Positions 1 to 20,004 of a stretch of DNA of 43,908 bases are shown here, piece by piece. How positions within the stretch are numbered: position 1 is the first letter of the stretch; every line of letters begins with the position of its first letter. A program made the position numbers and the translations under genes. Origin of the DNA: Lachnospiraceae bacterium (GTDB lineage: Bacteria; Bacillota; Clostridia; Lachnospirales; Lachnospiraceae); NCBI GenBank assembly GCA_017514845.1, contig JAFWIM010000100.1, forward strand, positions 1 to 43,908, read 5' to 3'. Under the pieces are notes generated by a model. It searched no databases and was not told the DNA's origin. It saw only the letters and a program-made list of their open reading frames with translations.

Positions 1-72
1 TGATTATCGCCGGCCGCTACAGGGCGGCGCAGAGAGCGCAATAGTTCAGACGGGCGTTCTTGAACTTTGGTT

Positions 73-197
73 CCGGAGCAAAACATCCTTCTTCGTGAGA
101 AAAGCATTGTAAGTCCGACCGAGAGATCAAACGCGTATGCGTTTTTAGCTCGCAGGAAAGGACTTACGCTTTTCGATGAAGATGATGTTTGCCCCGG
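73..197. repeat. Structured hairpin element, copy A
   Basis: Imperfect inverted repeat of about 125 nt. Outer arm: CCGGAGCAAAACATC at 73-87 faces GATGTTTGCCCCGG at 184-197. Middle arm: GAAAAGC (98-104) faces GCTTTTC (168-174). Inner arm: GTAAGTCC (108-115, after an ATT bulge) faces GGACTTAC (160-167). The tip carries CGAG/CTCG pairing around a small hairpin, AACGC-GTAT-GCGTT. A second copy lies at 10061-10192 with different stem sequences but the same pairing and the same internal segments (GACCGAGAGATCA, AGCTCGCAG). Either strand could be functional; on the plus strand it is followed by a moderately T-rich tail. No known RNA family is recognised. Confidence 0.8.
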
Positions 198-310
198 TTC
201 TTGATGTTTGGGCAGCCAGATTAAAGCCGGGAAAGGCGTGACAGCCGAAGTGGGATAAAATGGTACTCCGGTGAATCGGAATTTGCGAAATTAATACGGA
301 TTTAGGAATT
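198..310. other. Unassigned stretch between hairpin element and terminators
   Basis: No convincing gene or riboswitch is seen. It contains small potential pairings (CCGA at 233-236 region against a later TCGG) and ends directly before a terminator hairpin, so it may be the 3' part of an upstream transcript. The minus-strand reading frame crossing it has no ribosome binding site and overlaps the structured element, so it was not called. Confidence 0.4.
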
Positions 311-350
311 ACCCGGTGTGAAATCACAAGATTTTGCACCGGGTCTTTTT
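311..350 (+). terminator. Intrinsic terminator
   Basis: ACCCGGTG (311-318) pairs with CACCGGGT (337-344), and GAAATC with GATTTT extends the stem. CTTTTT follows at 345-350. It probably ends the transcript entering from the left edge of the window. Confidence 0.85.
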
Positions 351-367
351 ATTTCCACAACATTTAG

Positions 368-391
368 GCGGGAGCATCCATCCCGCTTTTT
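368..391 (+). terminator. Second intrinsic terminator in tandem
   Basis: GCGGGA (368-373) pairs with TCCCGC (381-386) across a 7-nt loop, followed by TTTTT. With the terminator just upstream it insulates the division cluster from preceding transcription. Confidence 0.8.
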
Positions 392-408
392 CTTTTGCCG
401 TTCGGTGG

Positions 409-9974: not shown

Positions 9975-10005
9975 ATCCCGCAGCCTTTCGGCTGCGGGAT
10001 TTTTG
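9975..10005 (+). terminator. Intrinsic terminator after nrdR
   Basis: ATCCCGCAGCC (9975-9985) pairs perfectly with GGCTGCGGGAT (9990-10000) across TTTC, followed by TTTT. It ends the ftsZ-nrdR transcript. Confidence 0.92.
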
Positions 10006-10060
10006 CGTAGGTGTCGAGCTTTCGCAAAAGTAAAGCCGGGATGCTGTTTCAACTCGGCTG

Positions 10061-10192
10061 CCGGCCGCAAAGCATTCATCTTCGTGAGAAAAACATTGCA
10101 GGTTCGACCGAGAGATCAGAAGATGCGAAGGCATCTTCTAAGCTCGCAGAGGAGAACCTGCGTTTTTCGATGAAGATGATGCTTTGCGCCGG
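10061..10192. repeat. Structured hairpin element, copy B
   Basis: Second copy of the element at 73-197, 132 nt. Outer arm: CCGGCCGCAAAGCAT (10061-10075) faces ATGCTTTGCGCCGG (10179-10192). GAAAAAC (10088-10094) faces GTTTTTC (10162-10168). GCAGGTTC (10098-10105) faces GAACCTGC (10154-10161). The tip hairpin is GAAGATGC-GAAG-GCATCTTC, unrelated in sequence to copy A's tip. GACCGAGAGATCA (10106-10118) and AGCTCGCAG (10141-10149) are identical to copy A. It is followed by TTTTGATTTTT. It lies between the nrdR terminator and the pyrH promoter, so it is not simply the terminator of nrdR. Confidence 0.82.
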
Positions 10193-10257
10193 CTTTTGAT
10201 TTTTCGCATGAGCTGTTACAGGCTTTATGCTGCCTGCTAAAAATTTTTCCTCTAATG

Positions 10258-17999: not shown

Positions 18000-18000
18000 G

Positions 18001-18085
18001 TGCGGAAGATGGGACTTGAACCCACACGCAAGCATTATGCACAAGATCCTTAGTCTTGCTCGTCTGCCAGTTCCGACACTTCCGC
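18001..18085 (-). tRNA. tRNA-Leu (AAG), first copy
   Basis: An 85-nt class II tRNA. The acceptor stem is GCGGAAG/CTTCCGC with discriminator A; CCA is not encoded. The anticodon stem CAAGA/TCTTG encloses CTAAGGA, giving anticodon AAG (Leu, codon CTT). There is a long variable arm and a TTCAAGT T-loop. It is identical over all 85 nt to the plus-strand gene at 19920-20004. Confidence 0.95.
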
Positions 18086-19919: not shown

Positions 19920-20004
19920 GCGGAAGTGTCGGAACTGGCAGACGAGCAAGACTAAGGATCTTGTGCATAATGCTTGCGTGTGGGTTCAAGTCCCATCTTC
20001 CGCA
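19920..20004 (+). tRNA. tRNA-Leu (AAG), second copy
   Basis: Identical to the minus-strand gene at 18001-18085 over all 85 nt; identity continues through the preceding TGTTGACGC but stops right after the discriminator base. The two genes form an inverted repeat flanking about 1.8 kb. Strong promoters in front of both suggest both are active. Confidence 0.95.

Follow-up and report, generated by a model that had tools for sequence, protein, structure and literature searches.

The window analyzed here, that is, the whole 43,908-nt stretch of a Lachnospiraceae genome, contains two copies of a hairpin-forming element, copy 1 being located upstream of mraZ and copy 2 upstream of pyrH (Table 1; genes here and below were called with a home-made codon model, and mraZ, pyrH, secY and adk were named by eye). 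In a sister genome, G025, the mraZ copy was found at the same site in the same orientation, and the pyrH site carries the unit inverted. Compared with shuffled sequences, the two copies had folding z-scores of −8.35 and −10.82, and none of the 200 shuffles equaled either. A preliminary description of these two copies had reported stems that change on both sides around segments that stay the same; the quoted stems do differ on both sides between the copies at the reported positions, and GACCGAGAGATCA and AGCTCGCAG are identical in both. The extents that it proposed hold for the covarying cores, but the full units are longer, with approximate ends that were set from the family conservation profile, an end motif and by eye (Table 1).

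Two further terminator-like hairpins with T-runs lie between copy 1 and mraZ (window 305-400; by eye) and are largely conserved in G025. Elsewhere in the window, two tRNA-Leu (AAG) genes were found at 18000-18085 (−) and 19920-20004 (+), about 1.8 kb apart and in opposite orientations, with identical tRNA sequences and different flanks; AAG is an unusual leucine anticodon in bacteria.

Table 1. Positions of the two element copies and neighboring features in the window.
Feature	Position	Strand	Basis or remark
Copy 1, full unit including its outer arms	42..224	+	Right arm decayed; family profile and end motif; by eye
Copy 1, covarying core	73..197	+	Fold, covariation; model match 134.8 bits
GACCGAGAGATCA fixed segment, copy 1	117..129	+	
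Terminator-like hairpin with T-run, separating copy 2 from the gene upstream	9977..10005	+	By eye; conserved in the G025 alignment
Copy 2, full unit including its degenerate outer arms	10030..10230	+	Right arm decayed; family profile and end motif; by eye
Copy 2, covarying core	10061..10192	+	Fold, covariation; model match 144.8 bits
GACCGAGAGATCA fixed segment, copy 2	10106..10118	+	

What had been described as a two-copy element proved to belong to a repeat family dispersed over the window's own genome, in which it occupies 115 places or more. When at most one mismatch was allowed, the 13-nt fixed segment GACCGAGAGATCA was found 71 times in this genome and not once when read backwards. Six of these matches were discarded by eye as non-members, and 61 of the remaining 65 members were aligned, the four with a ~100-nt insertion in the tip being left out. 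The covariance model of these 61 copies gave at least 122 matches when 150 of the 1805 candidates in the own genome were scored, seven of which were removed as the opposite strand of an already counted place. In the sister genomes, the same model matched all 150 scored candidates of G025 (at least 150 matches) and 106 of 150 in G003, both counts still including opposite-strand matches.

In the family, the unit is a rod of ~190 nt, composed of degenerate outer inverted repeats (about CAGTTCAGACAGGCTG), interrupted stems and a variable tip, in which the interruptions are conserved internal loops that stay fixed while the stems vary. Across the 61 aligned same-genome copies, hereafter the short type, 97.5% of 2430 pair cells hold standard pairs (shuffled mean 90.2%), two-sided changes occur in 20 of the 40 pairs (shuffled mean 12.1) and in 185 cells (shuffled mean 40.0), and none of 500 shuffles reached any of the five covariation measures; shifting the partner by 1-3 columns left 39-51% paired. 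The paired stem changes around fixed segments, first read from two copies, are seen as strong covariation in this larger set.

A second, long type was first met among the weak short-model matches in other species. Its model, built from 33 copies, contains 53 pairs, 25 with two-sided changes; in 500 shuffles, four of the five measures were never reached, and the one for further pair types was reached 48 times. Since the long-type model also picks up short copies (E about 1e-15 to 1e-19), the two types are homologous. Judged from the listed scores, long copies number 36 in G020, 27 in G022, 11 in G005, nine each in G033 and G035, and one in G011. Among 56 matches in G025, one is of the long type (C4:13970; L141 5970-6135); it separates secY from adk in the ribosomal spc operon and is antisense to both. 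The long-type tip carries the motif GTGACCA..GTATGC..GCGAC..CGGGAAC, which was found exactly in 41 stretches of a species-genome collection, all labelled Lachnospiraceae, Clostridiales or Clostridia; one comes from a goat-ileum metagenome-assembled genome (MAG) and many from MAGs with the prefix RUG, which we take to stand for rumen.

In the genomes searched, the family was confined to one Lachnospiraceae genus and, within it, to some of the species. With 56 candidates scored per genome, the short model was positive in nine of 61 genomes, namely the own genome and eight of the 36 others of the same genus, and in none of the 24 other genomes of the order. The long model was positive in nine of 39 genus genomes and, when 295 genomes of the order were searched with nine candidates scored per genome, in the own genome only. 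Binning errors are possible in the MAGs used. The covarying homologues that the preliminary description proposed to seek in relatives thus exist, and its suspicion that no known RNA family is involved was borne out by Rfam 15, which returned none for either core: permissive scans of both copies gave weak matches only, far below gathering scores, and the whole window gave four matches at gathering, all tRNA. Copy 1 had no match in phage and plasmid collections, nor had two exact patterns in viral contigs, and a phage- or plasmid-borne element was rejected on these records. Clustering of ORFs of at least 80 aa at 162 loci revealed no protein that could be taken as a common partner; the largest clusters (at most 10 distinct members) were by eye spurious repeat ORFs or housekeeping orthologues, and an autonomous partner gene was not retained as a candidate.

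All copies that could be classified in two genomes are intergenic: none of 59 own copies (seven more at contig edges) and none of 91 G025 copies (five at edges) lie inside a gene. Where G025 copies separate co-directional genes, the median distance is 37 nt to the stop codon of the preceding gene and 151 nt to the start of the next. In G025 its orientation to genes is free: 14 copies lie between divergent genes, seven between convergent ones, and the others divide into 39 antisense and 31 sense (P = 0.40 for 39 vs 31). The own copies lean antisense (29 vs 16, P = 0.07). The family profile contains no conserved sequence or possible shared promoter upstream of about position −81 and no T-run after the unit. 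Of 80 gene ends that face an element, 14 have a terminator-like hairpin before the element and three have one less than about 80 nt beyond it, compared with 42 of 197 gene ends that face none. At 10 of those 14 ends, the T-tract lies 4-23 nt from the element edge. A role as intrinsic terminator was therefore rejected because of the missing T-run and the absence of terminator enrichment at element-facing gene ends.

To evaluate which strand folds, we compared G-T with A-C pairs. The raw count over 155 copies was 172 to 33 when two mostly-G-T pairs were left out and 389 to 39 when they were included; this excess was set aside as strand evidence, since part of it stems from the use of a + strand structure prediction, and strand-neutral counts, from pairs predicted from both strands, were used instead. 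These gave 63:19 for all 155 copies, 32:8 for the 61 short copies and 14:2 for the 33 long copies, and a tally by pair gave 12 vs 5, 14 vs 4 and 6 vs 1 (sign-test P = 0.14, 0.03 and 0.13). The copies show no replication-strand bias (46 lagging, 36 leading and seven unclear), so leading-strand mutation bias fails to explain the G-T excess. The + strand is probably the functionally folded one, as RNA or as single-stranded DNA, on modest evidence.

Constraint on the core was quantified at 19 same-orientation orthologous copies. The core diverged at 150 of 2291 positions (6.5%), compared with 198 of 1304 in the outer arms (15.2%), 620 of 3853 in the intergenic flanks (16.1%) and 1219 of 15786 in the coding flanks (7.7%). 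Since these copies include replaced ones and one poor alignment (locus L018), the value of 6.5% is more likely to overstate than to understate the divergence of inherited copies. Over 24 orthologous comparisons, we counted 29 two-sided pair changes (26 between standard pairs) against 2.9 expected, many of them due to replaced copies, and the one-sided changes were 36 pair-keeping vs 11 pair-breaking.

The sister genomes allowed the fate of single sites to be followed. For G025, 60 stretches were sampled, of which 40 (656,815 bases) had been picked so as to surround listed copies. A further 20 (399,997 bases) came from elsewhere, mostly away from listed copies, and contain seven copies by nhmmer and at least one more by eye. 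Of 69 well-scoring own copies, 26 were mapped by both flanks to the 657 kb and one to the 400 kb elsewhere, and all 27 meet an element in G025 (the last by eye, with a branched tip), in a sample that, being mostly centred on G025's own copies, under-samples absent sites. Twenty-four own copies fall at single-copy G025 sites, 20 in the same orientation and four inverted (the window's pyrH copy, L015, L017 and L057), where L018, with two own copies facing one G025 copy, counts twice in the orientation, pair-change and rank tallies. The pyrH and L017 copies are near-unchanged, with the G025 occupant as their nearest relative, which identifies these two as in-place inversions; their breakpoints are in or near the outer arms. 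The occupant is the nearest relative in 14 of the 24 comparisons (distance 0 to 0.061), ranks 3rd to 7th in five, and ranks 20th or worse in another five, with distances of 0.165-0.221 (median of any two copies, 0.211). These ranks indicate that some sites retain an element but hold another member of the family.

Of 18 G003 copies, six map to G025 and seven to own loci. Four of the six are single copies in the same orientation, and the other two are neighbors that map to a two-copy site, where the more similar G025 copy is inverted. At the own loci, five are in the same orientation, one is inverted and one meets an empty site, at which the own genome (G000) runs on from a terminator while G003 carries an element just after it; the own copy neighboring this empty site is mostly deleted in G003. 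This one filled/empty pair attests past mobility of the element. Both ends were recognized in 109 of 149 copies, and no flanking direct repeat of at least 3 bases was found in more than four copies at any offset.

The tips are exchangeable and may hold other units. Some copies contain within the tip a branched unit of ~103 nt, which had, fragments included, 14 matches in the own genome, six in G003 and 11 in G025, and none in 38 other genomes of the genus. Loci of the branched unit include L016 1518-1620, L338 770-892 and L346 1498-1631, among others, and mostly lie in an element tip; at L346, no element was found in the 70-nt flanks. On the opposite strand, nine of 12 loci match Clostridiales-1 (RF01699) at 34.5-40.5 bits, all below the gathering score of 48 bits, and membership was therefore not assigned; the authors of that family consider it a probable RNA that is probably neither cis-regulatory nor a riboswitch (in the description consulted, PMC2864571). 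A separate hairpin repeat, GGGACGGTTCTTTT..AAAAGAACCGTCCC, was found at L030 77, L008 1329, L233 1401 and L334 11771; at some places it is uninterrupted, and elsewhere its tip carries the element or a remnant of the element's arms. With tips holding other units and the element itself sitting in GGGACGGTTCTTTT tips, hairpin units are nested in hairpin tips. The flanks were also considered as inverted repeats: in 120 copies, flank pairs taken as duplexes had a mean energy of −10.1 vs −8.8 in shuffled pairing. Nesting in GGGACGG hairpins accounts for a small subset, and this candidate was dropped.

We put at somewhat better than even, roughly 55%, the reading that this is an ERIC/YPAL-like, protein-less and high-copy intergenic hairpin repeat, which spread in an ancestor and is now kept by selection on its fold. 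Counted for it are the copy number, the covariation in both types, the intergenic placement, the slow core, the shared sites, the inversions, the replacements, the empty site and the nesting; counted against it are the free orientation, which is the main difficulty, the modest strand lean and the lack of target duplication. On orientation the element contrasts with ERIC, whose effect on mRNA is reported to be orientation-dependent (PMC2229807). The ancestral spread would have been that of a non-autonomous element tending to land beside or inside hairpins, with the outer arms as likely crossover points for inversions. At present, the folded + strand may be recognized by a cellular factor, most likely as RNA in read-through transcripts, where it could, for example, be a hairpin that guides processing or blocks decay close to gene ends, by analogy with what has been reported for ERIC. 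The selection on RNA structure claimed in the preliminary description holds in so far as the fold is kept by paired changes, but the strand lean is modest, and that the element acts as RNA is what we infer.

Mobility could itself be the reason for the fold. If the element were a single-stranded DNA hairpin like those of REP/RAYT or IS200/IS605, its folded strand would be recognized as DNA by a Y1 transposase and structure would be selected for mobility rather than for a role as RNA, an origin that we consider unlikely. Long hairpins with fixed loops and the absence of target duplication fit it, and Y1 transposase genes (PF01797) occur in eight of nine element-bearing genomes compared with 14 of 32 others of the genus, a mild association (Fisher P = 0.024); however, G011 bears the element without Y1, the copies lack a replication-strand bias, and mobility alone leaves the slow core at old shared sites unexplained. 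Moreover, 12 Y1 loci (about 2-3.4 kb) scanned with the short model, which covers the short type only, contained no element match, and the Y1 gene flanked by the repeat that marks REP/RAYT systems was not found in them.

More than 100 fixed docking sites, marked by the short outer inverted repeats, might also serve a dedicated recombination or copying system that inverts hairpin cassettes or exchanges them for other family members, each cassette being preserved by selection on the folded strand. The outer arms at the seven sites replaced by our own cut had a mean of 6.1 mismatches of 32, compared with 4.4 at 16 kept sites and 8.9 in unrelated pairs, and only L015 and L041 lie within the lowest 5% of unrelated pairs. 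We regard such docking sites as quite improbable; if real, they would amount to a genome-wide system for exchanging hairpin cassettes whose tips are interchangeable, a Clostridiales-1-like RNA being one such tip.

A family of trans-acting RNA genes, each copy yielding a discrete structured RNA, would account for free orientation together with a selected fold, and the long type, in having several conserved internal loops, does look like a classical structured RNA. We nevertheless give it poor odds, as the sequence upstream of the unit is not conserved, more than 100 copies have changing tips, and the sole long copy of G025 lies within a ribosomal operon. The discrete transcript of 120-140 nt that was first suggested is likewise unsupported, given the high copy number, the occurrence of all orientations to genes, the lack of upstream conservation, the in-place inversions and the insertion polymorphism. 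Comparably poor are the odds that no selection on the fold exists and that both stem sides are rewritten by arm-to-arm template switching in a quasi-palindrome or by inter-copy recombination: although many two-sided orthologous changes stem from replaced copies and in-place inversion shows arm exchange, the internal loops are fixed while stems vary, the core is slower than flanks and arms, one-sided pair-keeping changes outnumber pair-breaking ones, and template switching predicts neither fixed loops nor a one-strand lean.

On the preferred reading, that of a hairpin repeat kept by selection on its fold, a large and strongly covarying family with two species-level forms would join the known intergenic hairpin repeats. 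Covariation among the copies of one genome, accordingly, need not imply an RNA gene. At matched sites in the sister genomes, conservation, inversion, replacement and insertion are directly visible, which opens to testing the old question of whether repeats of this kind are under selection where they stand or are just leftovers of mobility. In addition, a relative of the orphan Rfam family Clostridiales-1 is placed inside nested dispersed elements.

The element family is undescribed: no description was found in the literature searched, mostly open-access, and it is set apart from ERIC, YPAL and bcr by their descriptions rather than by sequences. YPAL has its hosts (Yersinia) in a different phylum. 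REP sequences of RAYT systems are likewise high-copy intergenic palindromes, but they measure 20-40 bp in the source consulted (PMC3733652), and the element here has no linked transposase found. Clostridiales-1 differs in that it resembles the insert in the element tip only, the element core having no match. The repeats bcr1-bcr18 of the Bacillus cereus group are intergenic as well, some with conserved secondary structure, and about half of their copies are described as transcribed (PMC3446304); they belong to another host group and were compared by description, not sequence. ERIC is described as an intergenic repeat of ~127 bp that forms one long stem-loop and of which a genome may hold as many as a few hundred copies (PMC2267715), with an orientation-dependent effect on mRNA reported (PMC2229807); it differs by TA ends and target duplication (PMC2229807), and fixed internal loops, in-place inversion and swapped tips are absent from the parts of its descriptions consulted (PMC2229807, PMC2267715). 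YPAL, or RU-2, is described as 168 bp long, intergenic and folding as a long hairpin with ends that lack TA, and its targets adjoin or span dyad symmetry (PMC2229807); unlike the element, for which no duplication was found, it duplicates 3-26 bp of its target (PMC2229807). Although no named class could be assigned, the element is thus in kind a known sort of repeat, ERIC/YPAL-like, with many intergenic copies that each fold as one long hairpin.
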